A DNA stretch of 46,356 bases, taken from NCBI GenBank assembly GCA_020435995.1, contig JAGQYO010000028.1, positions 1-46,356 of the forward strand, written 5' to 3'. Below the pieces are notes generated by a model. The model had not been told where the DNA came from, searched no databases, and saw only the letters and a list, made by a program, of their open reading frames with translations. Position 1 is the stretch's first letter. Each line of letters starts with the position of its first letter. Origin of the DNA: Flavobacteriales bacterium. Its GTDB lineage: Bacteria > Bacteroidota > Bacteroidia > Flavobacteriales_G > Salibacteraceae. Positions 26,739 through 42,207 of the stretch are shown here, piece after piece. The translations under genes were made by a program, and so were the position numbers.

Positions 26739-27677
26739 ATGATTCAAAGAAATTCAATTCTTGCACTCCTACTTTTTATGCTATTTAATTTAGCTCATAG
26801 CACTGAGGTGGCGCATAGTCAGTTAACCATTTATAGCGATGTGGTAAATAACGATAGCACCAAGAAAGTTGTAAATATTCAGAGCTACACGCCTTCTGTG
26901 CTGCTATCGAAGGGCCAATGGGAGTTCAAGAGTTTTCAAAATTTATACACCCAAATAGGAAGCTACGACAACAGCAACCAATATACCGACAACAATGGAA
27001 GAAGTAGTTTTTTCTCATCGATCAATCAATTCACATTTGGAATAAATAAGCGGGTAAACATAGGAGCCGATTTATGGTTCAAAAGTGTGCACTATGGCCC
27101 AAAAACTGACTCACCCTTAGCCGTGTTTCAATTCTCCAACACCGCTCAAAGCCGAAGTGCAATAACAGGGCTAGGTCCAAAAATCAGAATTTCTCCCATT
27201 AAAAAATTGCACCATTTTTCGATAAACAGCACTTTTTTAATTCCAACAGTAAGTGACCTTAACGGATCTGATGACCCCAATTTACCTTGGCTCAGCGCAG
27301 ACGCTTACCTCTGGATTACCCAATTTTATTATGATCTGCCGATAGGAACACAATTTCAATTGTTTTTTCAATTAGCTCCATGGTATTCGATCCCTAAAGT
27401 ACACGAACTAGAAAAACAAAAGTTAGATCTACCCATAGATGTGTTCTTTTCCTATTTTCCTTCTAAGAAACTCACCCTATATGTTCAAAATGAGATTTGG
27501 CCGACCCTAAACCATAACGGACAGTTTTCTAGCTATTTTATCCAAGGTGGTCTAGGAGTAAAATACCAATTAATTCAAGGATTGTTGGAGTTAGAAAGTT
27601 CGTACACGAACTTTTATTACGGCTGGAATTCAGGTGCTGGTCAGACCTTCAATGTAGGTCTACGAATTATTCGTTAG
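26739..27677 (+). CDS. outer-membrane beta-barrel protein (transporter-like)
   Basis: The 312-residue protein has a signal peptide (about residues 1-21) and a barrel-like strand pattern with frequent F, Y and G, such as FTFGINKRVNIGADLWFKSVHYG and an ending strand GQTFNVGLRIIR. The C-terminus on R rather than F is common in Bacteroidota barrels. It diverges from the FAD oxidoreductase operon, sharing the intergenic inverted repeat at 26705-26728, and converges on a JmjC-like gene with an 11-base overlap. The substrate is unknown. Coregulation with the operon is inferred from position only. Confidence 0.75.
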   Translation: MIQRNSILALLLFMLFNLAHSTEVAHSQLTIYSDVVNNDSTKKVVNIQSYTPSVLLSKGQWEFKSFQNLYTQIGSYDNSNQYTDNNGRSSFFSSINQFTFGINKRVNIGADLWFKSVHYGPKTDSPLAVFQFSNTAQSRSAITGLGPKIRISPIKKLHHFSINSTFLIPTVSDLNGSDDPNLPWLSADAYLWITQFYYDLPIGTQFQLFFQLAPWYSIPKVHELEKQKLDLPIDVFFSYFPSKKLTLYVQNEIWPTLNHNGQFSSYFIQGGLGVKYQLIQGLLELESSYTNFYYGWNSGAGQTFNVGLRIIR

Positions 27678-28554
27678 TTACTCGTGATTTACCCTTCTTC
27701 ATCATCCGTCTGGCTCTGGAATCTGCCATTTCAGTCTTTTTTTCAAACCACCAATTTCCAGTCGTTTTTCGCATAGTATCGTCTAATGTAGATACGAGTC
27801 CGACTTGAATCCAACCGTCTACCGTGTTGGATACGGTGCCCAAACTGCGAAACGACATGCCTATTCCGGTTGATAGATACCTGATGTGATGCCAATATTT
27901 GCAAGGCATAAAAAGCGTTTCACCTTTTTCAAGAATTGTGTGAGAGCCTTTTACAAAATTAAGCCCAGGATACTTTTCGTAATCGGGCTCCTCAATGTTT
28001 ACCCCAGTATGAGTAGTAAAGGGATACCTGTATAAGAGATCATCATATTCAGGGCCGAATAAAATGACCTTTTTCCTTCCCCAAAATTCGGTAAGAAACA
28101 CATTGGCATTGTCCATATCTCGGTGCATTCGAGCTACTGACCCCTCGCCTCCAAAAAATGTGAAAGGAAATCCTTTGACGATGTTATCCACTAGATGTTC
28201 AGGGTACTCAAAGTCATGTCTTAATTCTGGTTTATGCTTAAATACATTAAATAGGTGCAATCTGGCATCAGTAGGGCCTGAGGTGATTAAATCAAGGTAG
28301 TCGGCAAACTTCATTCTTACTGGCGCTTGCTTATAGGATCTGTCTAAATACGCGGGATCATTATCAAACACCCCAACTTCGATGTGGCCAAGTTCTTTTT
28401 TAAAATATTCGGGAGACCATTTCGAATTGGCTGTGGAGTCTCTGAGTAGATTTCTAAATTTAACAGGTTTCTGCGGCTTCATGTAGCGTTCGACGAACTC
28501 TTCATAATCAATACAGTCAACTACGTCAATTTCTTTGCTAAAATCTATTGCCAT
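27667..28554 (-). CDS. JmjC/cupin_8-like Fe(II)/2-oxoglutarate oxygenase-type protein
   Basis: The 295-residue protein has the double-stranded beta-helix layout of cupin_8/JmjC oxygenases. The metal motif is HxD at H144 and D146 (MHRDMDNANVFLTEFWG), and the distal ligand is H222 or H223 in KYWHHIRYL, spaced as in the family. Strand FWGRKKVILFGPE after HxD is typical. Bacterial members hydroxylate proteins (for example ribosomal proteins) or small molecules; the target is unknown. It has its own candidate promoter box at 28574-28581 and converges with the barrel gene. Confidence 0.85.
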   Translation of the reverse strand: MAIDFSKEIDVVDCIDYEEFVERYMKPQKPVKFRNLLRDSTANSKWSPEYFKKELGHIEVGVFDNDPAYLDRSYKQAPVRMKFADYLDLITSGPTDARLHLFNVFKHKPELRHDFEYPEHLVDNIVKGFPFTFFGGEGSVARMHRDMDNANVFLTEFWGRKKVILFGPEYDDLLYRYPFTTHTGVNIEEPDYEKYPGLNFVKGSHTILEKGETLFMPCKYWHHIRYLSTGIGMSFRSLGTVSNTVDGWIQVGLVSTLDDTMRKTTGNWWFEKKTEMADSRARRMMKKGKSRVTNE

Positions 28555-28644: not shown

Positions 28645-29283
28645 TCAAGGAATGATTCCAGATCTAAATGCTTTTTCTGAAAATTTGAGCTTTGACTTTG
28701 GAATGTCAAACTCCTTTTCATTTAATTCTTGTGGTATTATTTCTGTCGCCAAATAGCTAACTCGTGGTGTTTCTAATTTCAATACCATGCCTGGAACAGA
28801 AAGATAACCAATGGGCGATATTCCGCCTTGTAACTGAGGAGTGTACCATGCCAAATAATTCTCCTTGTTCACATCGTCATAAATCAAAACTTTGTGGCAG
28901 GCGTACCCAAGGATTACTTCATGAAGCTTGGTGTGTTCTATGGAATATCGTGTTTTTAAGTTGCTGTACAACAAGCAGCAATTCGAATCCTTGAATTCGT
29001 GTTTATAAGCATATTTACCCTTTTTCCAAAAAAGCATTTTTTTACTCGGGGCAATTTGCGCTAATTCATTATCAGAAGATTGATGAACATACAAGCCTAC
29101 CTTATCCATAAAGTACATTCGATTAGACACTTCAATAAACTCGACTTTTTGGGTAAGAACATTTGCATCTCCTCTTCCGACCTCTATTTTGATTTTGTAA
29201 TCAACATATCCAGCATTAATTTTTTGGCCAATACTATTTAATTGAAAAGAAAAGAGAATGAATAGTAACTGTAGAAATTTCAT
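28645..29283 (-). CDS. GLPGLI-like family secreted protein
   Basis: The 212-residue protein has a signal peptide (MKFLQLLFILFSFQLNSIGQ). The GLPGLI-family pattern follows: INAGYVDYKIKI at the start of the mature protein, ILGYACHKVLIYD, AWYTPQLQGGISP, and a degenerate family motif SVPGMVLKLE in place of LPGLILE. GLPGLI proteins are Bacteroidota envelope proteins of unknown function. It is the last gene of a three-gene minus-strand run, nine bases after the second giant PKD gene, and so may assist its display or maturation. Confidence 0.78.
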   Translation of the reverse strand: MKFLQLLFILFSFQLNSIGQKINAGYVDYKIKIEVGRGDANVLTQKVEFIEVSNRMYFMDKVGLYVHQSSDNELAQIAPSKKMLFWKKGKYAYKHEFKDSNCCLLYSNLKTRYSIEHTKLHEVILGYACHKVLIYDDVNKENYLAWYTPQLQGGISPIGYLSVPGMVLKLETPRVSYLATEIIPQELNEKEFDIPKSKLKFSEKAFRSGIIP

Positions 29284-29292
29284 TTGGCGAAT

Positions 29293-32200
29293 CTAGCGTA
29301 GTAAGGTAATATAGCCTTCCTTGGTGTGTACTTCGTTATCAAATCCTTCGGCTCGCACGTAATAAATGTATGTATCCATATTCTGAAGTTCGCCTTTGTA
29401 GTAACCATCCCAACCTGGTACGGACGGAGAGGCCTCAAATACTAATTCACCCCATCTGTTGAAGATTTTAAATTCCAGTATTTCTTTCAACCCCCAACCA
29501 TTAGGAAAAATCAGATCGTTTTCTCCGTCTCCATTAGGAGTAAATGCATCTGGCACATCTACTGAAAACTTCTGTGAAACATTTACCAAAATACTTCCAG
29601 TGATACTAAAGCAACCCAATGAATCTGAAACAGTGAATTTGTAGCGCGTACCGATTAATGGTTGTGCAAATGGATTTTTGCAATCTGTGCAACTTAAACC
29701 ATCTGGAGGTGTCCAGAGCCACTTATGTGCCTTAGAAAAAATGGGCTTGAGAACAAATTCTTCCCCAATAATAACGGTTGTATCAGCCGGCATTGTTAAA
29801 ATTGGCTCTTGAATCACGCGGACCAAAACCGAATCTTTTGATGTACACCCATTCGTATCTGTGCCTAATACCCTGTATTCCTGATCAATTGGAGGAGCAA
29901 CTCCTGTTTTGGCCCTTGTTGGGTATTTGAGGTATTCCACGGGATTCCACAAATAAGAAAAAGCACCTGTTGCAAGCAAATGTGCGCTGTCATTTAAACA
30001 AATTATGGTGTCAGCACTGGCTTTAACCACAGGAAGTGGAAGCACTGTTAAAGACTTAAGCATGGTGTCTTTACATCCCAATGAGTTTTCATAAATTAAC
30101 CTAACCTGATGTTGTCTCGGCTCGGTAAACGTGGCATTGGGATTTTGACTCGAACTTGTTTTGCCATTTCCAAAGTCCCAATTCCATTTACTTCCTCTTT
30201 GGCTTTTATCTTCAAATGAAGTTTGAAACGGCGAACATCCTAAGGTATCCGGTTTTATGTTGAAATCTGCAACTAAATCCAATACAGTTAGAGGAATCGC
30301 ATCGAATTTCGTACAGGTTCTATTCGAATCACTAAATATTAAAACCGTCAGTAAGTTGGCTGCTGTGGTGTACGTTTCAATCAATGATTTGGTATTGGTG
30401 TCGGTGGAGTCCAGTCGCCCATTCGCAAAATCCCATTCCAAAAACTTGGTAAACTGATTGACTGTATCGACTCTCATTTCGGCCTTGCCAAATACACAAA
30501 TAGAATCGGGTTGTAAAGTGTACCTCGCATAAGGTCCTTTTACATTGATATAATGTACGCGCTCTGCGGAGTCTCTACATCCAAAAGCTGTTTCCACAAT
30601 GAGTTTTACCGTAAAGAGACCAGGCCCAAAATAAGTTTTAGTTAATGAATCTTTTGCAGGGCTTGTAATTGGTGCATTTCCATCGCCAAAATCCCATGTT
30701 CGGCTTCTGATAGAATCGCCTGAGCTTACATCCGAAAAGAAAGTAGTAGCTGGATAGCAAGAAGTATCAGTAAGGGTAGCCCAAAATCCAACAGAATCAA
30801 TGCCCTGCACATCGATTGGAATAAGCATAGAATCAACACATCCAGACCCACGAACTACGTATTTGGAAAGGTAATACCCCCCTTTTTTGTAGATATGTGA
30901 AATGGTATTGGCTAAAGCAGTGTCACCATCGCCAAAATAATAAACCGATTGCGTGCCAGCTACTATGCTCCTAGAATCTTGAAACTTTACTGAATCATTT
31001 TTACATAATGTCCTTTTGTCAACCGTATACTCAGCTTCAGGCCCTTCAACGGTTAGCCGTTTTGTTATGGTTGAAACACATCCAAAGCTATCCCTAACCG
31101 TCAACATTACATTGTAATTGGCACTCCTGTAATTCAATTTAGGAACACTTGTATTAGGCCCCAAATCAAATTTGTTTGTAAATATGGAATCGTTGCTAAA
31201 ATAAATCCCATTAATAACCCAAGAGCGAGAATTGATGGGCAATTGAGACTTAGAAGTATCAATCAATTGAACACTATCCAAATTACAAATAATTGCTGGA
31301 CTTGAATAAGCTGCCTCTGGCTTGTAAACATGAATTCGTTTATATGCTGTGTCGGTGCAGCTATCAACACTCATTACAACCAAACGAACCGTGTATTGAC
31401 CTGCGTTTGGAAATTGTGCATTATGAGAAACTTTAAAATCAGCCGTTGAGCCATTTCCGAAATCCCAGAAATACCGATTTCCTATGGCACCTACAGAATT
31501 GGACCCAGAATACAATCTACTTCCCGCGCATTGAATTAATGTATCGGCGGCAGGTGTAATTACCGCTTGAATAGGTGCCGGGTTGTGGCTTAATGCAACA
31601 GAATCCTTGCACCCAGTTGTGTCATTGATGGCCCAAAATTTAATTGCGTAGGTACCTGGTCCGCCATAAAGATGGGATGGCGACAGATTAACGGTATCGT
31701 TAGCGTTGGTATCACCAAAAGACCAATATTGTCTAGAATGACCTCCGTTAATGGTCCCTGTGAATTGAACTGCAAGTGGATTAACGCAATTAACACTCAT
31801 TCCGGCCTTTACCTCAGGGCCAGAAACCCAAAACCCATTAACCACTGTGGTATCTCTTTGACAACCATAACTATAAGCGGTAAGTTTTACACTGTTCCAG
31901 CCTAATTTAGTAAACGGTAGTTTCGGATTCTTTTTTGTTGAACTCACTCCACCAAATACCCATAAATAGCTTGTTATTTTAGTGGTATCGGTGGATAAGT
32001 TGGTAAACTGAATAGAATCCTTGCGGCAAATGGTATCTGGAAACCAAGAAAAATTAGGCTTGGGTATTTCACCTACTTGGTAGATAAACGAGGTTTCAAG
32101 CTTACATCCTGCCGAGTCAATTACAAGCAGACGACCTGTATATTTCCCCATACCAGTGAGTTGCAAAGAATCGGGAGTAGCTTTTGCAGAGGTATCAGCT

Positions 32201-33648
32201 GGGTTTCCTGTTCCAAAATTCCATGAGTAGCTTATCGGCTTAAATTTTAAACATTCGTTTTTTGTGAAATTCGCGAAAGTTGGCGCGCATGGATCGGTAA
32301 CTACAGCCGAAGCTTGAACCCTGCTATTCCATATAGGCCCAACCGTTTTTACAACAGTAGATTGACAGCCGTTGTACCCTGTTACCGTTAAGGTTACTTG
32401 GTAGGTAGTATTTGTACAAAAACTGGGGGGAAAACGATAGCTAAAATTTTTTGTGTTTTTAATGACCTGTGTGCCATTTACGGTAAAGGAATAACGATAG
32501 GTTTTTATGTTCCCGAAAGAGCTGTCTTTAAATGAAATAAACTCTGGAGAACAGATCGAATCTTGGCTAAAAGTAAAATTAGCGTGAACACTATCAACAT
32601 AAACCGTTTTCGAAATGCTATCCACACAGCCAACTCCAGCTTTAGAAACCAACTTGACTACATAACTTCCCCTAACTGGAAAGGTGAAAAATGGATCTTT
32701 TACTGTTGAACTTCCCAAGGTGCTAAAGGTCCATAGGTAGGTTGAAGCGCCTTGAGATAGATTGATAAAACTAGCGCTTGTACCAGTACATAGGGTGTCG
32801 TCTACTCGAAAATCGGCCTTAGTTTGTCCTAAATTCACATATCCTACCCTCGATAAGGTGTCCTTACATCCACTCGTGTCTGTTACCACTAATTTTACCG
32901 TGTACGACCCCGCTACTGTATAGGTGTGCGATGGATTGGAAGTGGTATCTGTTGCACCATCTCCAAATATCCATAGGTAGCTCAAGTTCCCTTTTCCGGT
33001 GCTGGTATTCGTAAAAGAGCTCGTTAGCGGCGGTTGACAGCCGGATAGATTTGTACCTGAGAACGCTGCAATTGGAGGTTTAACCGTTATGGCTCTTGAG
33101 TGAATAACCTCTGCGCTGCAACCATTGACATCAAATACTTTAAGAATTACTGAGTAGGTACCATTTAGGCTATAAGAATGGGTGGGATTTTTTACGCTTC
33201 CCTTGGTGGTTAGATCACCATAATCCCACTCCCAACGGTTAATTGGCGCATCACCTGCGGTGGATTTGTCACTAAACTGAACCAAAATAGGTTTACACTT
33301 GTCCAATTCCGTGAATGTAAATTTGGCCGTAGGGCTTTTAAAAATTTGCAAGTAGTTCGTTTTGGTTAATGAAGTTGTGTCTATACCATCTGAAACAGTG
33401 AGTGTAACGGTATAAAAACCACTATTGGGGTATGCCCGAGACGGATTTTTAAGCCCTGATTGTCCTCCATTGCCAAAATCCCATTTCCAATACACAATTG
33501 AACCGTTGGTACTTGTGCTGAGATCGAAAAAATTAATCTGAGCTGGAGCGCAGGCTTTGGTAGTATCTGCCCGAAATTGCACAGTGATGGTCGCATGCAC
33601 TGAGTACGTAACGACCAGAATAAATATGATTGAATAGAGTTTCTTCAT
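29293..33648 (-). CDS. giant PKD-repeat surface protein with T9SS type B sorting domain (copy 2)
   Basis: The 1451-residue secreted protein has a signal peptide (MKKLYSIIFILVVTYSVHA) and about 14 PKD-like immunoglobulin-fold repeats of roughly 85-100 residues, recognisable by WDFGNG/WDYGD/WIFGDG motifs and x-Y-x-V-x-L-x-V strands. Most repeats carry a cysteine pair (C..P at the start, GC at the end). The C-terminus is the gliding-associated T9SS type B domain: VPDAFTPNGDGENDLIFP, FNRWGELVFEA, WDGYYKG, GYITLLR. The repeats are suited to adhesion or surface filaments. It lies seven bases after its paralog and nine before the GLPGLI-like gene. Confidence 0.92.
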   Translation of the reverse strand: MKKLYSIIFILVVTYSVHATITVQFRADTTKACAPAQINFFDLSTSTNGSIVYWKWDFGNGGQSGLKNPSRAYPNSGFYTVTLTVSDGIDTTSLTKTNYLQIFKSPTAKFTFTELDKCKPILVQFSDKSTAGDAPINRWEWDYGDLTTKGSVKNPTHSYSLNGTYSVILKVFDVNGCSAEVIHSRAITVKPPIAAFSGTNLSGCQPPLTSSFTNTSTGKGNLSYLWIFGDGATDTTSNPSHTYTVAGSYTVKLVVTDTSGCKDTLSRVGYVNLGQTKADFRVDDTLCTGTSASFINLSQGASTYLWTFSTLGSSTVKDPFFTFPVRGSYVVKLVSKAGVGCVDSISKTVYVDSVHANFTFSQDSICSPEFISFKDSSFGNIKTYRYSFTVNGTQVIKNTKNFSYRFPPSFCTNTTYQVTLTVTGYNGCQSTVVKTVGPIWNSRVQASAVVTDPCAPTFANFTKNECLKFKPISYSWNFGTGNPADTSAKATPDSLQLTGMGKYTGRLLVIDSAGCKLETSFIYQVGEIPKPNFSWFPDTICRKDSIQFTNLSTDTTKITSYLWVFGGVSSTKKNPKLPFTKLGWNSVKLTAYSYGCQRDTTVVNGFWVSGPEVKAGMSVNCVNPLAVQFTGTINGGHSRQYWSFGDTNANDTVNLSPSHLYGGPGTYAIKFWAINDTTGCKDSVALSHNPAPIQAVITPAADTLIQCAGSRLYSGSNSVGAIGNRYFWDFGNGSTADFKVSHNAQFPNAGQYTVRLVVMSVDSCTDTAYKRIHVYKPEAAYSSPAIICNLDSVQLIDTSKSQLPINSRSWVINGIYFSNDSIFTNKFDLGPNTSVPKLNYRSANYNVMLTVRDSFGCVSTITKRLTVEGPEAEYTVDKRTLCKNDSVKFQDSRSIVAGTQSVYYFGDGDTALANTISHIYKKGGYYLSKYVVRGSGCVDSMLIPIDVQGIDSVGFWATLTDTSCYPATTFFSDVSSGDSIRSRTWDFGDGNAPITSPAKDSLTKTYFGPGLFTVKLIVETAFGCRDSAERVHYINVKGPYARYTLQPDSICVFGKAEMRVDTVNQFTKFLEWDFANGRLDSTDTNTKSLIETYTTAANLLTVLIFSDSNRTCTKFDAIPLTVLDLVADFNIKPDTLGCSPFQTSFEDKSQRGSKWNWDFGNGKTSSSQNPNATFTEPRQHQVRLIYENSLGCKDTMLKSLTVLPLPVVKASADTIICLNDSAHLLATGAFSYLWNPVEYLKYPTRAKTGVAPPIDQEYRVLGTDTNGCTSKDSVLVRVIQEPILTMPADTTVIIGEEFVLKPIFSKAHKWLWTPPDGLSCTDCKNPFAQPLIGTRYKFTVSDSLGCFSITGSILVNVSQKFSVDVPDAFTPNGDGENDLIFPNGWGLKEILEFKIFNRWGELVFEASPSVPGWDGYYKGELQNMDTYIYYVRAEGFDNEVHTKEGYITLLR

Positions 33649-33655
33649 TTTAATT

Positions 33656-36600
33656 TTAACGAAGCAAAGTTAGGTATCCTTCTTTAGTATAAGTTTCTCC
33701 ATCATAACCGGTAGCTTTTACGAAATAGATAAAAGTATCCATGTTTTGTAACTCATTTTTGTAATAACCATCCCATGCCGGAATACTTGGAGATGCTTCG
33801 AATACAAGTTCTCCCCATCTATTGAATATTTTAAACTCCAGAATATCCGCAATTCCCCAACCCGCAGGATAAATCAGGTCGTTTTCCCCATCCCCATTTG
33901 GGGTAAATGCATCGGGGACGTCGATTGAAAACTTTTGTTCAACATTGACTAAAAAATTTCTTTCTACCGTAAAACAACCTAGCGAATCAGAAACTAAAAC
34001 TTTATACCTAGTAGCTTCTAAGGGAAAGGCCAGAGGATTGGGGCAATCGGTACAACTCAAACCCGTACCTGGCGTCCACTTCCAAACCGAAGCATTGAAA
34101 AAATTTACGTTAACTTTAAACTCCTCCCCTATGATGATCGTTGTGTCTGCCTGAAGAAAAATTTGAGGTTCTTGAAGCACCCGAACCAATACAGAAGCTT
34201 CATTTACGCAACCATTAGTATCGGTGCCTAATACTTTATAAGTAACGTCCACTTCGGGGGCAGTCTTTGTATGCTGACGAAGTGGAAACCTAACAAACTG
34301 AGTTGGATTCCAAGAATAAGTAGCTCCACCGAAGGCACTCAGAGAGGCGCTATCTCCAAAACAGATAACAGTGTCCTTTTTAGCCGTAATATGGGGCAGC
34401 TGGTGAACAACAATTTGCTTAACAAGTGTGTCCTTGCAGGAGTTTTTTGTGTTTTCATACATCAATTCAACTTGGTAAGTACCTGCCTGCTTAAACTCGT
34501 TTTTTGGATTTGGAATGCTGCTTACATTTCCGTCGTTCATGTTCCACTTCCACAAATTCCCCCTTTGACCCTTGTCGGTAAAATCAACTTTGAAGGGCAT
34601 ACATCCTATCGTGTCAGGAGAGATGTTAAAATCCGCTATCACATTTTCCACCACGAGAGGAACCGACCTGAATTTTTTACAACTTCTGTTAGAATCACTG
34701 TAAACCAAAACCGTTAACAAATTTCCTGGAATGGAGTACTTGTGTGTTTTTATCGTTGTATGCACATCTGTTGAGTCTAGCCTACCGTCGGCAAAATCCC
34801 ATTCGAGGTAGTGGGTATAGCTGTTTAAAGAATCAACTTTGAACACAACTTCTTCGAAGGTGCACACCGAATCTGGTGAAACCTCAAAACGCGCATACGG
34901 GCCTTTTATGTTGACAAAACTATCTAGCCTCACTGAGTTCATACAGCCGTAACTGGTTTCAACCGTAAGGAGGACAGAAAACTTACCTGGCTTTAAAAAG
35001 GTTTTGGTTAGGTTGTTCTTAAGCGGAGATCGAATTGGAATCGTACCATCGCCAAAATCCCAAATTCGCCATTTAATGGAGTCTCCAATGGATACATCAT
35101 TAAAAAAAGTAGTCGCTGGATAACAAGTAGTGTCAGTTAGAGTTGCCCACATTCCTACTGAGTCAATTCCCTGAACGCTAATGGGTATAATTAACGAGTC
35201 TTTGCAACCATTACCTTCCACAATATATTTGGAATGATAAACTCCGCTATTGGCATAACCGTGTCTCGGATTTCTCATGGTAGTTGTATCTCCATCTCCA
35301 AAATGGTAAATAAACTTGGCCCCGGGCATTTGAAGGTTGGTATCAAGAAACTCTATTGTGTCTCTTCTGCATATTGTAGAATCATTGGTTTGGTAGTTCG
35401 CGACTATTTTGGTAAAGTATATCGGTTGTTCTAGTAAACCACCACATCCATACTTATCTCTTATTTGAAGCTCCAACAACATGGTGTCGAGCCACATATT
35501 CTTTTTTGGAAAAAGCGTATCTGTATACAAAAGGGTTTTTATTCCAATAACCTTATCGCTTGAGTAAAAACTGCCATCATAAAACCAATTTCGCCATGTA
35601 ACCGAGCTTTGAACGATGGAAGTGTCCGTAATAGTTAGGCTATCACCGTGGCAAATAACACTGGGTAGAAAAAAACGTGCTTGTGGTTTATTTACGTACA
35701 CATATTTATATGTAGTATCACTACAACTATCGACATTGAACACCACTAACATCACCCTTCGCAAACCCGCGGAATCATAAGTATGATCGGGTAGTTTATC
35801 AAAATCTTTGGTAAAACCATCACCAAAATCCCAATGATACCAGAGCCCATAAACACCAACAGATTTCGACCCGTCAAATTGAACTACTGTGCCAGAGCAA
35901 ACCCAAATGGTATCGGACATATCAATAACAGCCTTTAATGGAATCGGAGAGATTTTGAAGGACGCAGAGTCAACACATTTGGTGGTGTCGTTGATGGCCT
36001 TAAACTTATAGGTATATGTACCGGCAGTAGCGTAGGTATGGTTAAAAGTTAAGTTGTTTGAATCTACCTTCGATGTATCCCCTAGCCAAGTATAATGTCT
36101 GTTGTAGCCCCCTGTAATGTGGTTGGTGAATATGTATTTTAAAGGATTAATACAATCGTTAATGTAGGCGGTGCTTACTATCGGTCCGCTGACCCACACC
36201 ACTTTGTTTAGTGATGTGTCTGCCTTGCAACCGTATTGATACACGGTAAGTTTCACGTTGATTGCACCTAATTTTCTGGCTGGTAAATAGTAGTTTTTAC
36301 CCGTTCCTGGAACTCCGCTCGTTACTTCCCAAGTATAGCTGGTAATTTTGGTGGAATCGGTAGAAGTACTCTTGAAAACAACTAATTCATCATAACAAAC
36401 CGTATCCTTATTCCACACAAAACTTGGATGTTGTTTGGCTCCGACTGAATAGGAAATTGGCTGACGCACTTTGCAACCTGCCGAATCCCAAATAGTAAGC
36501 GACCCCACAAAGCTCCCAGGGGTAGTAATGGTAATAATGTTGGTCGGAGAGGCCAAATTAGAAGTGTCTGCCGGATTTCCAGTTCCAAAATTCCATGAAT

Positions 36601-38014
36601 ATCGAACGGGCTTAAATCTTAAACAATTGGATTGGCTAAACGCTGCAGTGGTAGGTACACAAAGCGCCGCATTAGTGGTTATGTTGATTTGTTCTTTATA
36701 AACCTCAATCGGTTTCGTAACCACACTCACACATCCAAATTTCGATACCACAGAGTCGGTAATAATGTATGTGGCCTTTGCACAACCAATTGTAGGGAAA
36801 AAGAAAGATGTGTCTCGGTCATAACTGTGGTAGTTGTTATAAGGTATCAACCATTTAAAAAAGTGTTTTCCAACATTCCCATAAGACTTGTCACGAAACA
36901 TAAAAAGTTGTGGTTTGCAAATAGAATCCATGGTGGCCGTAAAATCAGCTTTAACACTATCAACATATATACTTTTGGTAATGCTATCTATACAAGTAGG
37001 GCCAGAATTAGCTACCAATTTTACACTATGCCACCCCGATCGATAAAAGACATAAGTAGGGCTTTTGTTGGTTGACGTTCCCAAAGTACCAAAACTCCAA
37101 TTAAAATTTTTAGCCCCAATGGATTGGTTTGTAAAATGTACTGCTTTCGCGATACACACGGTATCTGGCCCACTAAAATCAGCTTTTGTTACGCCAATAG
37201 AAACATATCGTTTGCGGTTGAGGGTGTCTTTGCAATTATTGATATCTGTGGCAATCAGCATGACATCGTAGATTCCTGCCGTAGAATAAGTATGTGTAGG
37301 ATTAGCGCTTGTAGAATTGCTGCCATCACCAAAATACCATTGGTAGGTCAACGGTGGTTTACCTACACTTGAGTTTGTAAAAACCGATGTCAACGGCGCT
37401 TGACAGTCGGAGATATTTGCACCCGTAAACTGAGCTTTAGGTGGGTCCACTACTATTATATTTAAACGCTGCACCTCACCCTGACAACCGTTGGTATCAA
37501 TTACCTTAAGAATGACGGAATAGGTACCTCTGTTGGTGTATCCATGAGTCGAATTTTTGCTACTTCCTTTCGGAGAAAAATCGCCATAGTCCCACTCCCA
37601 CTTTGTGATTTTTCCATCACCAGCGGTAGAGTTATCGACAAACGCAACATTCACTGGGAGGCATTTGGTAAGTTCTGTAAAACTAAACAATGCTGTAGGG
37701 CCTCTAAAAATCCGAATGTAATTAGAGTAAATCTGTTGTACGGTGTCTATTCCGTCCGAAACGGTTAATTTAATGGTGAAACTTCCATTATTGGGATAAG
37801 CTCTCGCGGGATTTTTGAGCGTGCTTACACCGCCATTTCCAAAATCCCAGAGCCAATAAACTATTGGGCCATTGGTGCTGGTGCTCGAATCCATAAAATT
37901 AATCTGGGCTGGCGCACAAGCACGGGTTGTGTCCGATTTAATCTTAACAGTAATGGCTCCAAATACCGAGCTTTGGAGAAGTGCAAAAAGGAATAATAAA
38001 ATTGGCTTTTTCAC
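33656..38014 (-). CDS. giant PKD-repeat surface protein with T9SS type B sorting domain (copy 1)
   Basis: The preferred start is GTG 38014, giving a 1452-residue protein with a clean signal peptide (MKKPILLFLFALLQSSVFG); a longer TTG frame from 38065 would read through the promoter box at 38032-38039. The domain order matches the downstream copy closely, with about 14 PKD-like repeats, cysteine pairs in most repeats, and the same type B C-terminus (VPDAFTPNGDGENDLIYP, FNRWGELVFEA, GYLTLLR). The near-equal lengths and shared motifs show a tandem duplication. It is probably exported by T9SS and anchored on the surface. It diverges from the PorP/SprF and OmpA pair. Confidence 0.92.
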   Translation of the reverse strand: MKKPILLFLFALLQSSVFGAITVKIKSDTTRACAPAQINFMDSSTSTNGPIVYWLWDFGNGGVSTLKNPARAYPNNGSFTIKLTVSDGIDTVQQIYSNYIRIFRGPTALFSFTELTKCLPVNVAFVDNSTAGDGKITKWEWDYGDFSPKGSSKNSTHGYTNRGTYSVILKVIDTNGCQGEVQRLNIIVVDPPKAQFTGANISDCQAPLTSVFTNSSVGKPPLTYQWYFGDGSNSTSANPTHTYSTAGIYDVMLIATDINNCKDTLNRKRYVSIGVTKADFSGPDTVCIAKAVHFTNQSIGAKNFNWSFGTLGTSTNKSPTYVFYRSGWHSVKLVANSGPTCIDSITKSIYVDSVKADFTATMDSICKPQLFMFRDKSYGNVGKHFFKWLIPYNNYHSYDRDTSFFFPTIGCAKATYIITDSVVSKFGCVSVVTKPIEVYKEQINITTNAALCVPTTAAFSQSNCLRFKPVRYSWNFGTGNPADTSNLASPTNIITITTPGSFVGSLTIWDSAGCKVRQPISYSVGAKQHPSFVWNKDTVCYDELVVFKSTSTDSTKITSYTWEVTSGVPGTGKNYYLPARKLGAINVKLTVYQYGCKADTSLNKVVWVSGPIVSTAYINDCINPLKYIFTNHITGGYNRHYTWLGDTSKVDSNNLTFNHTYATAGTYTYKFKAINDTTKCVDSASFKISPIPLKAVIDMSDTIWVCSGTVVQFDGSKSVGVYGLWYHWDFGDGFTKDFDKLPDHTYDSAGLRRVMLVVFNVDSCSDTTYKYVYVNKPQARFFLPSVICHGDSLTITDTSIVQSSVTWRNWFYDGSFYSSDKVIGIKTLLYTDTLFPKKNMWLDTMLLELQIRDKYGCGGLLEQPIYFTKIVANYQTNDSTICRRDTIEFLDTNLQMPGAKFIYHFGDGDTTTMRNPRHGYANSGVYHSKYIVEGNGCKDSLIIPISVQGIDSVGMWATLTDTTCYPATTFFNDVSIGDSIKWRIWDFGDGTIPIRSPLKNNLTKTFLKPGKFSVLLTVETSYGCMNSVRLDSFVNIKGPYARFEVSPDSVCTFEEVVFKVDSLNSYTHYLEWDFADGRLDSTDVHTTIKTHKYSIPGNLLTVLVYSDSNRSCKKFRSVPLVVENVIADFNISPDTIGCMPFKVDFTDKGQRGNLWKWNMNDGNVSSIPNPKNEFKQAGTYQVELMYENTKNSCKDTLVKQIVVHQLPHITAKKDTVICFGDSASLSAFGGATYSWNPTQFVRFPLRQHTKTAPEVDVTYKVLGTDTNGCVNEASVLVRVLQEPQIFLQADTTIIIGEEFKVNVNFFNASVWKWTPGTGLSCTDCPNPLAFPLEATRYKVLVSDSLGCFTVERNFLVNVEQKFSIDVPDAFTPNGDGENDLIYPAGWGIADILEFKIFNRWGELVFEASPSIPAWDGYYKNELQNMDTFIYFVKATGYDGETYTKEGYLTLLR

Positions 38015-38031
38015 CTGCTTGACTAAACCTC

Positions 38032-38039
38032 CAAATGTA
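38032..38039 (-). promoter_or_regulatory. candidate -7 box TACATTTG for the PKD operon
   Basis: Minus-strand TACATTTG matches TAnnTTTG and ends 17 bases before GTG 38014. It supports that start over TTG 38065. The same 8-base box precedes lysC. No -33 TTTG at the usual spacing. Confidence 0.45.
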
Positions 38040-38148
38040 ACTTTTAAATCAAAATATGCTTTCAAGGATTTGTAAACCGATTCTTTTGATTTATTAAAAA
38101 GGATAGATTTATATTCACTAATTAAACTTTCTTTGCTTAATTCGAAAA

Positions 38149-39165
38149 GTGAAATTTATCAAAGACCATATTCTTCTTCTATCCATCATTTTGACGGTTG
38201 GAATGAGTAACGCTCAAGACGTACACTATAGCCAATTTTATTTAAGCCCACTGACAACAAACCCAGCAAACACGGGCAACATAGATGGTGATTGGCGTTT
38301 TGCAGGCAACTTCAGAAACCAATGGAGGAGCCTTGGTAGACCCTTTATTAGCACCTCCTTTAGCTACGATCAAAATTTCTTTGTTTACAACGAACATTTA
38401 AGCGGTGGACTCATGTTTATGCACGATGAGTCGGGATTGGTAAATCTTCGTCTTGAAAAAATAATGGCGTCTTTGGCTTACCACAAGAGTTTTGATATTC
38501 ATAGTTTTCATATCGGATTTCAACCGGGATACGCCATTAAAGCTGCTGATTTGAATGGCACTTCCCTACCCGATCAGTACGACCGAAATACCGGCGGGTT
38601 CAATAGCAATCTGCCCACAAGCGACCCTTATATACAAGCGCAGCTCAGCTACTTCGACTTCAATGCAGGCCTTGCCTATGGCATCGACTTGGGAAAAGCG
38701 CACCCAGAAGTGGGATTTGCGATGTTTCACCTAACAAAACCTCAGGAAACTTTTTATAACAACGACAACCGGTTGCCAGTAAGGTATATTTTTAATGCCA
38801 AAAGTGAAATTGAAGTTTTGGATGTGCTCAGCGTAATGCCCTACGGAATGTATATGATGCACAATAAAGCGTCGGAATTGGTCATTGGCGCCAACGCCAT
38901 TTTTCATTTACCAGAGAATAATTCTAAAGCCACCGGAATATATGGCGGACTTATGTTTAGAAATGGTTTTAATAGAAATACCGATGCAGCCATAGCCGTT
39001 GCGGGAATCCGATACACTCACCTTGAAATTGGCGTAAACTACGATATAAACGTATCCGAACTAAAATTGGCTACCGACAACAAAGGCGCTTTCGAAATTT
39101 CATTGGTTTATACCAGTTTGAGTACCTTATTGAAAAAAACAGCTATTCCTTGTGATCGATATTAA
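38149..39165 (+). CDS. PorP/SprF family T9SS-associated outer-membrane protein
   Basis: The 338-residue protein starts at GTG 38149 with a signal peptide ending in SNAQ. It has the PorP/SprF opening DVHYSQFYLSPLTTNPANTG, then NFRNQWRSLG and repeated barrel strands. PorP/SprF proteins are outer-membrane barrels that act with T9SS in export or anchoring of type B cargo such as SprB. It is divergent from the two giant type B proteins and overlaps an OmpA-type gene by 14 bases. This is the classic SprF-like partner arrangement, so it is likely the dedicated partner of that cargo. Confidence 0.93.
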   Translation: MKFIKDHILLLSIILTVGMSNAQDVHYSQFYLSPLTTNPANTGNIDGDWRFAGNFRNQWRSLGRPFISTSFSYDQNFFVYNEHLSGGLMFMHDESGLVNLRLEKIMASLAYHKSFDIHSFHIGFQPGYAIKAADLNGTSLPDQYDRNTGGFNSNLPTSDPYIQAQLSYFDFNAGLAYGIDLGKAHPEVGFAMFHLTKPQETFYNNDNRLPVRYIFNAKSEIEVLDVLSVMPYGMYMMHNKASELVIGANAIFHLPENNSKATGIYGGLMFRNGFNRNTDAAIAVAGIRYTHLEIGVNYDINVSELKLATDNKGAFEISLVYTSLSTLLKKTAIPCDRY

Positions 39166-41209
39166 ATTCATTCTTAAGAGTTCATTTGTATCTGTAATGA
39201 CCTTGTTGATGGTATTGTCTCTTGGCGCACAAGAAAACGTCACCGACATCAAAACGCCCCATCTCAAAAAGTATTTTAAAAGTGCCAAAAGAGCCAAAGA
39301 TCATTATTCGCAAATTGATTTTTTGGAAGAACTCACCAAGAGAAAACCTGAAAAACTTCAATACAAATACGATCTAGCAAGAGCCTATGATAATTCGAGG
39401 AATTTTCAACGGGCTTTAGAGGAGTACTCTAAAGTTTATTACGCCGACCAAGAAGCCTACGCAGTTTGTTTGTTCCACATGGGCCGAATTATGAAAACCC
39501 GTGAGCAGTACGATATGGCTAAGGTGTATTTCGAGAAGTTTGTGAAGGGTTATAGCGATAAAAACAACGGAAAATATTACAAGAGCTTAGTAAAAGCTGA
39601 AATAGCAGGATGCGATTTTGCCCTCGCCGAAGACACCGCTACCCAATTTGCCCGCGTGAAGCACACAGAGGGTTATGTCAATTTCGCCAACATAGAATTC
39701 TCACCGCAGATAATTGATTCCAATACATTCTGGTACATAAGCTTGCCCAGTGATTCAGTCGTTTTTATCAAAGAAGATGTAGTTGATGAAACCACCCTAC
39801 TTAAAAGGAAAATATATGAAGCCAAAAAAGTTAATGGTGAGTGGAAAAACAATGGTGAAGCCGAAATATTTGTAAATAAATCGAAGAATAACATAGGAAG
39901 TTTTTGTTTTTCTCATGACCAGCAACGTATATACTACACCGTGTGCAAGCCCAACTGGCAAAACAGAATTATGTGTAAAATATACATGGCCGAAAAAGAA
40001 GATGGTGAATGGGGAAAACCCATCCTTTTGCCCGGAGACATTAACCTTTCAAAATATACAAGCACCCATCCTGCAGTAGGTCTTTCTTCCAAGCCTGACC
40101 GCGAAATCTTATATTTTGTTTCTGACCGACCTGATGGAAAAGGCCACATGGACATTTGGTACACCCGGTATCGCATATCCAAGGGCACATTTGAAAAGGC
40201 CAGAAACTGCGGTACAAAGGTGAACTCTATTGGAAATGAAATGTCACCCGTTTATGATAACAAAGCACATCGCTTGTATTACAGCAGCGATGGTCAGCCT
40301 GGCATCGGAGGATACGATATTTTTTACACCTCGGGCGAAAGAAGCAGATGGACCGGAAAAGGTGTGAACATTGGAAAATCTATCAACTCCCCTGTTGATG
40401 ACATGTATTATATGTTGTTTGACGATAGAGAAACTGGACTGCTTATTTCGAATAGAGAAGGAAGTATCTCGCTCAAACACGAACATTGTTGCGATGATAT
40501 TTTTCAATTTAAATGGTATAACTCCATTCACATTAACCTAAAAGGGGGGATAAAAAATGACTCCGACAAAACACCCATTAACGATGCGCAACTCATTGTC
40601 TTTTTAATTAATGAAGAAGACAAAGAAGAAATTGAGGTAGATCGCATTCTTTCAAAAGAAGATGGAACATTCGATTTGGAATTATTTGAAGAGAACAAAT
40701 ACCGCATTGTTGTTCACAAAGAAGGTCTTTTCAATGAAACTTTTGATGTAAGCACGAAGGGAATTGTAAAAACAACTGTTATCACAAAGAACGTTTTAAT
40801 GAGGCCAATTCCTGATGCTGAAATTATTATTCCAAATATTTACTACGATTTTGACGATGCTGGGCTGACGCCACTGGCTCGTACTGCTATCGATACTTCT
40901 ATTTTTGTATTGCTTACCCAAAACCCAACGCTCATAGTCGAAATTGCATCACATACCGACAGCAAAGGTTCAAATCCTTATAATTTAAATTTGAGTCAGC
41001 GACGGGCCGAATCAGTGGTTAATTATTTAAGAAAGCAAGGAATTCCCAAAGACCGAGTGAAACCCAAAGGCTATGGTGAAACCCAGCCCATTGCACCAAA
41101 TGAAAACCCTGATGGCACTGATAATCCTGAGGGACGCGCCCGAAATAGAAGAACAAGTTTTAGGGTCATTGGTGAATTACCCGTTCAAATCAATTACGAA
41201 GAGCCATAA
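39152..41209 (+). CDS. OmpA-family protein with PD40 propeller and peptidoglycan-binding domain
   Basis: The 685-residue protein starts at GTG 39152 inside the preceding gene, with a signal peptide ending near LSLGAQ. In order it has a TPR-like helical region (about 30-135), a PD40/WD40-like beta-propeller (about 160-440, with VSDRPDGKGHMDIWY and YSSDGQPGIGGYDIFYTS), a carboxypeptidase-regulatory-like fold (about 465-545), and an OmpA_C domain (about 555-680) with HTDSKGSNPYNLNLSQRRA and the RARNRRTSF binding arginines. The set resembles PorE/SprE-type anchors of T9SS. Overlap with the PorP/SprF gene implies coupled translation. Confidence 0.92.
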   Translation: MIDIKFILKSSFVSVMTLLMVLSLGAQENVTDIKTPHLKKYFKSAKRAKDHYSQIDFLEELTKRKPEKLQYKYDLARAYDNSRNFQRALEEYSKVYYADQEAYAVCLFHMGRIMKTREQYDMAKVYFEKFVKGYSDKNNGKYYKSLVKAEIAGCDFALAEDTATQFARVKHTEGYVNFANIEFSPQIIDSNTFWYISLPSDSVVFIKEDVVDETTLLKRKIYEAKKVNGEWKNNGEAEIFVNKSKNNIGSFCFSHDQQRIYYTVCKPNWQNRIMCKIYMAEKEDGEWGKPILLPGDINLSKYTSTHPAVGLSSKPDREILYFVSDRPDGKGHMDIWYTRYRISKGTFEKARNCGTKVNSIGNEMSPVYDNKAHRLYYSSDGQPGIGGYDIFYTSGERSRWTGKGVNIGKSINSPVDDMYYMLFDDRETGLLISNREGSISLKHEHCCDDIFQFKWYNSIHINLKGGIKNDSDKTPINDAQLIVFLINEEDKEEIEVDRILSKEDGTFDLELFEENKYRIVVHKEGLFNETFDVSTKGIVKTTVITKNVLMRPIPDAEIIIPNIYYDFDDAGLTPLARTAIDTSIFVLLTQNPTLIVEIASHTDSKGSNPYNLNLSQRRAESVVNYLRKQGIPKDRVKPKGYGETQPIAPNENPDGTDNPEGRARNRRTSFRVIGELPVQINYEEP

Positions 41210-41253: not shown

Positions 41254-42207
41254 ATGCGCTATTTACTTTTCCTCTGTTGTTGTTTCAGCTTTTCCACTTC
41301 CTGCTACTCCCAATCCAAATTGGAAAACGATGAATTTATTGATTGGATAAAATTTTCAGAAGTGGTAATTTCTGGTGTATCGTATCCAGAGTTTTGGGAG
41401 CCTCGACCCGGTAACTTTTGGACAACCAGCAACCAAGGTACACGAACCATCTCCTTCGCTCCTACCTGTTTGAGAACTGAAGATGCCATTGATAATACTG
41501 CCGTGTTGCTGCGTTCCGCTACGTTCCCATTTGGTATTGCTGCTGGAAGTTTAGTTTCTGGAACGTATCTAGGCGGCACCGATCCAGCAAAAGCTATAAA
41601 AAGTGGGAGACCTTGGACAGGAAAGCCAGAGAGATTTGTGGGATATTATAAATACCTGCCCAAAAATGGAGACTATTGTATCATAGACGCTATACTCACC
41701 AAGTGGAATGGAAGCAGCTCGGATACAATTGGCAGAGCCCAAATTCCTGCCTCTGATGTTTCTAAAACGGTAAGTACTTACACCAAATTCGATTTCCCTT
41801 TTAATTATAACTACGCCAATAAAGGAGAGCCTGACTCGATTCGCATTGTATTTACCGCAAGCGGAAACGGTATCAATTTTAAAGGGGGAAATGGTACAGA
41901 ATTATACCTCGATCATATCAAGCTTTTGTATCCCGGAGAAACAGGCTTGCCCGAATTAGAGGAGAACAACCTGCTTCGCATATTTCCCAATCCAGCTTCG
42001 CACACCGTTTTTATCCGACTAAAAGAAATAAAAAAAGAGGTGGAATTCTCCATTTACAACAGCGCTGGAAGTCTTGTACTATCTGAAACCATTGTTGACA
42101 GCTTTAACCCAATTGATATATCGAACCTTAGCAGTGGTTTGTATTTCTACCGCGCAACCCAAAAAGGATTGAAAGAAATCCAAGGAAAAATTCTCATAGA
42201 ACAATGA
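41254..42207 (+). CDS. T9SS type A sorting-domain protein with PCMD-like domain
   Basis: The 317-residue protein has a signal peptide (residues 1-19, ending CYSQ). Its main domain (about 25-225) resembles the putative carbohydrate metabolism domain, PCMD: PEFWEPRPGNFWTTSNQGT, RPWTGKPERFVGYYKYLP, and LYLDHIKLLYPGE. The last 75 residues are a T9SS type A sorting domain (LLRIFPNPASHTVFI ... ISNLSSGLYFYRA ... GKILIEQ). It is therefore exported and attached to the surface or released. Its stop overlaps the following barrel gene by four bases (ATGA). PCMD assignment is by pattern and the substrate is unknown. Confidence 0.85.
   Translation: MRYLLFLCCCFSFSTSCYSQSKLENDEFIDWIKFSEVVISGVSYPEFWEPRPGNFWTTSNQGTRTISFAPTCLRTEDAIDNTAVLLRSATFPFGIAAGSLVSGTYLGGTDPAKAIKSGRPWTGKPERFVGYYKYLPKNGDYCIIDAILTKWNGSSSDTIGRAQIPASDVSKTVSTYTKFDFPFNYNYANKGEPDSIRIVFTASGNGINFKGGNGTELYLDHIKLLYPGETGLPELEENNLLRIFPNPASHTVFIRLKEIKKEVEFSIYNSAGSLVLSETIVDSFNPIDISNLSSGLYFYRATQKGLKEIQGKILIEQ

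Follow-up and report, generated by a model that had tools for sequence, protein, structure and literature searches.

Side by side on contig JAGQYO010000028.1 of a Flavobacteriales bacterium (Salibacteraceae; GenBank assembly GCA_020435995.1) lie two genes, each for a PKD-repeat protein of about 1450 residues that ends in the type B C-terminal sorting domain (CTD) of type IX secretion system (T9SS) cargoes. The locus raises the question of how such a pair arose, why the two proteins are more alike at their ends than in their middles, and how both would be exported and held at the cell surface. The stretch analyzed, hereafter the window, comprises positions 1 to 46,356 of the contig. The two proteins are paralogs, and we consider it likely that they are surface rods, exported by the T9SS and held statically by a shared PorP–PorE-like anchor, and that this pair and a similar one in a relative stem from separate duplications. 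The features of the pair are as follows, with the evidence for each in parentheses.

33656..38014, minus strand: P2, the upstream copy (open reading frame (ORF) with translation, Pfam, TIGR04131 at 46.0 bits)
29293..33648, minus strand: P1, the downstream copy (ORF with translation, Pfam, TIGR04131 at 51.8 bits, 51% identity to P2, AlphaFold2)
33659..33925, minus strand: type B CTD of P2 (TIGR04131, whole-genome search)
29296..29559, minus strand: type B CTD of P1 (TIGR04131, whole-genome search)
32329..32592, minus strand: repeat 5 of P1, residues 353–440, 32% identical between the copies (per-repeat alignment)
31045..31326, minus strand: repeat 10 of P1, residues 775–868, 30% identical between the copies and the most diverged (per-repeat alignment)

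P1 starts with ATG and has 1451 residues; P2 has 1452 with a GTG start. These ORF coordinates agree with the initial annotation, which described two adjacent genes of 1452 and 1451 residues separated by 7 bases. An alternative TTG start at 38065 would lengthen P2 by 17 residues (ORF 33656–38065, 1469 residues). Each copy begins with a signal peptide and ends with the type B CTD, and between them lie 14 PKD-like repeats followed by two C-terminal modules, so that the earlier count of about 14 repeats stands and the two further modules before the CTD are to be added to it. When P1 is divided by cysteine spacing, its 14 PKD-like modules measure 79–94 residues and the fifteenth module 103; a short SCxxC module and then the CTD follow. 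Pfam recognizes PKD_4, PKD and CHU_C in both copies, with PF18911 matching 8 and 7 stretches and PF00801 5 in each, and PKD scores above the Pfam cut-off. Both matches to the CTD model TIGR04131 exceed its cut-off of 35 bits and reach the last residue. The N-terminal Sec signal peptides, as read from the sequence, are MKKLYSIIFILVVTYSVHA and (V/M)KKPILLFLFALLQSSVFG, and the structure model of P1 places a helix at residues 2–15. P2 also matches the NCBIfam model TIGR00864, "polycystin cation channel", at 87 bits against a cut-off of 1861, and this match was dismissed as a cross-match of PKD repeats.

That the two genes are a tandem duplication of one cargo gene is borne out along their whole length. 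BLASTP aligns P1 and P2 colinearly from end to end, with 746 of 1455 positions identical (51%) and 7 gap columns, and TIGR04131 is found in both. When the proteins are aligned repeat by repeat, as the initial annotation had proposed, all 16 modules find their best match in the partner module at the same position (30–68% identity, where off-diagonal comparisons average 27%), which rules out a chance likeness of unrelated PKD arrays. The copies are also far closer to each other than to other PKD proteins: each scores 1659 bits against its partner, while the next-best PKD proteins of the same genome give only local matches of at most 43% identity and at most about 103 bits.

Identity is distributed unevenly over this alignment, as had been noted before: the ends are 61–78% identical, compared with 25–50% in most 100-residue intervals of the middle. 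Repeats 1, 2 and 12 are 60–68% identical, and repeats 5 and 10 only 30–32%. The C-termini, first described as near-identical, do resemble each other closely, with 78% identity in the final 100 residues, but the DNA of the last block agrees at only about 70%. Ongoing gene conversion was offered as one explanation of the alike ends, and their excess identity is what such a process would leave. Nevertheless, synonymous sites give it no footing. Codon agreement among identical residues is at chance level in residues 1–150 (0.43, with 0.40 expected), in the last block (0.43, with 0.41 expected) and overall (0.42, with 0.39 expected), and since synonymous sites at the ends agree only to the degree expected from codon usage, homogenization of the ends is not supported. 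The longest exact run in the aligned DNA is 17 bases, and the sole repeat of at least 60 bases is 66 nucleotides long at 80% identity. Synonymous divergence between the copies (dS) is undefined or saturated along their length. The strongest 20-codon stretch lies mid-protein (344–379), away from the ends, and independent codons equal it in 24 of 500 simulations. The surrounding residues 341–380 (32509–32628) were considered as a conversion scar and rejected, as their 18 shared codons out of 23 (9.6 expected) are not significant over all the codon windows compared; the tract is absent from the tandem pair of a relative, genome G011, and a codon-level signal of conversion was found neither in P1 and P2 nor in the G011 pair.

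The same profile also separates copies of different species. Identity between P1 and P2 per 100 residues follows that of P1 or P2 against homologs in genomes G011, G002 and G009 (rho 0.65–0.85, pair by pair), and it correlates at 0.89 with the mean of the cross-species profiles and at 0.85 with distant relatives. Because conversion cannot act between genomes, this counts against it, and we regard ongoing conversion at the ends as very improbable. On the sequence evidence, conserved ends with a diverged middle reflect a constraint common to the whole family, and the pattern that prompted the original question is explained without gene conversion.

A second proposal was that the copies have become specialized for different ligands through their middle repeats, for which the low identity of repeats 5 and 10 next to that of repeats 1, 2 and 12 could speak. 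However, conservation across all relatives, those with a single copy included, is lowest in just these repeats, and the branches leading to P1 and P2 are equally long (0.60 and 0.61), with no sign that one copy has been specially diversified. Specialization of this kind is conceivable, and we find it doubtful.

Relatives of the bacterium allow the origin of the pair to be placed. Genome G011 also carries two copies in tandem at this locus, in the order PorE-like gene, PorP gene and two PKD genes, with GLPGLI and Cupin_8 homologs further on; genomes G002, G009, G017 and G022 each have a single gene at the syntenic locus. In the full-length tree, P1 groups with P2 (support 100 in the SH-like approximate likelihood ratio test, SH-aLRT) and G011a with G011b (support 99). 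Approximately unbiased (AU) tests reject both pairings of P1 and P2 with G011 copies as orthologs, at p about 2e-6 for the complete length and likewise in 5 of 7 blocks. The reading frames of the G011 copies appear to be broken close to the 3' end, which sequencing error may explain. Because the syntenic G011 pair forms a clade of its own, the gene has probably been duplicated in tandem on more than one occasion, and the simplest reading of these sequences is that the lineage of the window and that of G011 duplicated the gene separately.

A single tandem duplication in an ancestor of the genera, followed by old gene conversion (concerted evolution), would produce the same clades. It would agree with the position of both pairs at one syntenic locus, with their near-equal internal divergence (51.5% and 52.0%), with a within-genome excess of identity that is smaller in the middle, and with the two blocks, 201–400 and 401–600, in which the AU tests do not reject orthologous pairing. 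Since synonymous sites are saturated, an older duplication with ancient homogenization would leave little trace at codon level. Yet no block positively favors orthologous pairing and five of the seven reject it, neither pair has a codon-level signal of conversion, and four relatives are single-copy at the locus. We therefore judge a single ancestral duplication unlikely and retain separate duplications. Further tandem copies occur in genomes G006 and G073 and probably in G005, where the second gene is apparently split across two contigs. In a metagenome-assembled genome of Segetibacter (L035, 1–14611), three tandem genes encode proteins of a sister class of about 1600 residues, so tandem expansion is recurrent in the wider family.

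The family to which P1 and P2 belong was defined as proteins that are colinear over the full model, about 1440–1510 residues long and with a pattern of 32 cysteines; both proteins have this length, colinearity and pattern. A profile search finds the family in 22 of the 42 genomes of the order (30 matches), with ORFs of 1441–1540 residues when copies cut by contig ends or broken are left out, and gives strong matches in 7 of 148 genomes of a thin phylum-level sample. As a guard against length bias, a profile trained only on members from the genome search was run on ORFs of other lineages. All 14 complete ORFs found there match in one uninterrupted stretch that covers 97% of the model or more and are 1446–1486 residues long. 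Sister classes of about 1570–1630 and 1840–1890 residues mostly have only the first 1100–1220 or so positions in common with the family.

All 41 sequences have 30 of the 32 cysteines, and 98% of them have the remaining two. Modules 2–15 carry one pair each, 51–69 residues apart; module 1 has a single cysteine, C33, and the last three are found at positions 1320, 1323 and 1346. The pairs within modules are likely to form disulfides. Module number and cysteines are kept down to about 25–30% identity within the family. The Pfam and NCBIfam searches made returned no model specific to the 1450-residue family, so its members would receive no annotation beyond "PKD domain protein". It is an unnamed and unusually length-conserved protein family of the Bacteroidota. 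PKD-repeat surface proteins of the Bacteroidota are commonly regarded as arrays that freely grow and shrink. The constant modules and cysteines suggest that in this family the length of the rod is functionally fixed.

AlphaFold2 models of P1, computed in two halves with 41 aligned sequences, are essentially all-beta (mean predicted local distance difference test (pLDDT) 90.1 and 89.2; predicted template modeling score (pTM) 0.48 and 0.45), so the predicted modules are confident and their placement relative to each other is uncertain. For both halves, the best PDB matches are fragments of grappling hook protein A (GhpA), a giant Bacteroidota surface protein from Aureispira sp. CCB-QB1 (9flp, 9fly, 9flw and others; Foldseek E 5.5e-25 and 2.2e-30), which is thus the nearest solved structure by fold and is built of the same kind of module. 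The family profile matches GhpA at E 1.4e-200 in 17 stretches out of strict order, with the cysteines of both in the same register in the alignment. GhpA has 5898 residues and the window proteins about a quarter of that, P1 having 1451; length and repeat order rule out orthology, and the likeness indicates a shared module type. The comparison with GhpA gave no sign of hook formation by the window proteins.

The genes that flank the pair suggest how its products may reach and stay on the surface. Four of them are listed here.

38149..39165, plus strand: PorP/SprF-family outer-membrane shuttle or anchor, divergent from the pair (PF11751 at 3.4e-36; TIGR03519 at 156.9 bits, above cut-off; tail comparison)
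39152..41209, plus strand: PorE-like OmpA-family protein, the probable peptidoglycan-binding partner of PorP (OmpA, PD40, NF052230)
28645..29283, minus strand: GLPGLI-like protein, 9 bases downstream of the pair (TIGR01200 at 42.8 bits, just under the cut-off of 50; synteny)
27667..28554, minus strand: Cupin_8 protein, the last gene of a probable co-directional cluster (PF13621 at 2.4e-25; synteny)

The PorP gene faces the cargo pair across a gap of 134 bases, and the PorE-like gene overlaps it. According to published work, export of a type B cargo depends on a cognate PorP/SprF shuttle, three cargoes can use one and the same shuttle, and a cargo whose gene accompanies that of a PorE homolog appears static (PMC12618676). 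By analogy, one divergent PorP–PorE-like pair probably exports both proteins and holds them statically. P1 and P2 would pass the inner membrane by Sec; the type B CTD would take them through the outer membrane via the T9SS translocon and then keep them attached to the adjoining PorP-family barrel, which both copies may share. The PorE-like OmpA protein would probably tie this barrel to peptidoglycan, giving static rods. Most of the 14 PKD-like modules have two invariant cysteines, and together the modules may form a rigid spacer whose length is fixed; the N-terminal modules would face outwards, probably with an adhesive or capping function; an adhesive role is what the protein class suggests. 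After a tandem duplication in its own lineage, as in the relative that would have duplicated the same-locus gene separately, both copies would have been held under the common family-wide constraint, with conversion leaving no detectable trace.

The C-terminal tail of PorP opens a different possibility, namely that the pair are gliding adhesins carried by a PorP whose single tail cysteine is disulfide-bonded to the track protein GldK; SprF is linked in this way to GldK of the moving gliding track through its CXC tail (PMC12635249). The tail of the window PorP (...TAIPCDRY / ...LLKKTAIPCDRY) has one cysteine. We compared it (38149–39165) with the PorP tails of L161, L162, L165, L166, L139, L140, L143, L144 and L031–L053, and nearly all partner PorPs end with a single conserved cysteine, 3–5 residues from the C-terminus (PCDRY, PCERY, CPKF, CPRF); within the same genome, three PorPs lack it, that of L163 among them. 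PorG, like SprF, is joined to GldK by way of its tail, and the PorG of Porphyromonas gingivalis has one essential tail cysteine (PMC12635249). A GldJ-like gene of the genome adjoins another PorP, at 438.5 bits just under the cut-off of 458.2. On the other hand, no CXC motif of the SprF type occurs in the C-terminal tail of the window PorP, and a PorE-like gene directly follows it; the porE-linked type B cargo studied in Flavobacterium johnsoniae behaves statically (PMC12618676). Because the PorE-like gene follows PorP, we rate static attachment above gliding, which seems to us an unlikely role for the pair. The GldJ-like gene (L162; C185:34500–38500 of the same genome) directly follows a PorP-family gene whose product ends in ACPKF.

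Several points weigh against static rods on a shared anchor. NF052230, T9SS_PorE, the best model for the PorE-like protein, matches it over 636 residues at 314 bits with a cut-off of 600, and the protein is therefore called only PorE-like. The conserved tail cysteine of PorP makes a mobile role thinkable, as the cysteine pair in the SprF tail links to a moving track, and a GldJ-like gene is present. A PorP homolog is near 22 of the 38 family loci examined, 13 of which also have a PorE-like gene; at the other 16 it is absent within the stretch examined, some of these loci being cut by contig ends. We found no experiments on any member of the 1450-residue family in the literature.

With regard to the secretion system itself, the SprA profile TIGR04189 scores 1070 bits on contig C152 of the same genome, where the gene is cut by the contig end, marking a fragment of the T9SS translocon. 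The genome also has nine genes of the PorP family, and 19 type B CTDs in it exceed the cut-off; together with the SprA fragment, this identifies a genome with a type B-rich T9SS. GLPGLI-like and Cupin_8 homologs also occur at the loci of relatives (L139 and L140), with a Cupin_8 homolog beside a dispersed copy in L145 as well. At 41254–42207, adjoining the PorE-like gene both here and in L139, a PCMD-domain protein carries a type A T9SS tail.

The two tandem type B cargo genes and their anchor genes are a real and well-conserved set, though of an ordinary kind; more interest attaches to the family of fixed length and to the patterns of cysteines in cargo and carrier. It is conceivable, though we think it improbable, that the 1450-residue family is a phylum-level rod of fixed length, clamped by cysteines and seated on a dedicated PorP that is coupled covalently by its tail cysteine to the GldK/PorK track or to another envelope component, with recurrent tandem duplication supplying two variants per carrier type. 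If so, such duplication would let cells show two rod variants on one type of carrier. Tandem paralogs that face one PorP also make the specificity between cargo and shuttle directly testable.

Among characterized systems, the PorE–PorP–PG1035 complex of P. gingivalis (PMC9143113) joins a type B CTD protein, a PorP barrel and a PorE protein of the OmpA family, a trio to which the gene set here corresponds. PG1035, however, is one non-essential cargo, whereas here two tandem PKD-repeat cargoes of 1450 residues face one PorP–PorE-like pair, and the PorE-like protein scores under the cut-off of the PorE model. In the SprB–SprF system of F. johnsoniae (PMC12635249, PMC9143113), SprF binds SprB (PMC9143113), so that a large surface protein with a type B CTD sits on a PorP-like barrel with a cysteine-bearing tail, as we propose here; SprF differs in having a CXC tail and no porE neighbor and in moving on the GldK track, whereas in the window the PorP tail carries a single cysteine and the neighboring gene is PorE-like. 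The shared shuttle Fjoh_1677 (PMC12618676) sets a precedent for several cargoes per shuttle, but its cargoes are orphans elsewhere in the genome, while those of the window are tandem paralogs divergent from the shuttle gene. The static adhesin operon Fjoh_3952-3951-3950 (PMC12618676) resembles the window in placing a type B cargo, apparently anchored statically, beside a cognate PorP/SprF shuttle and a PorE homolog.

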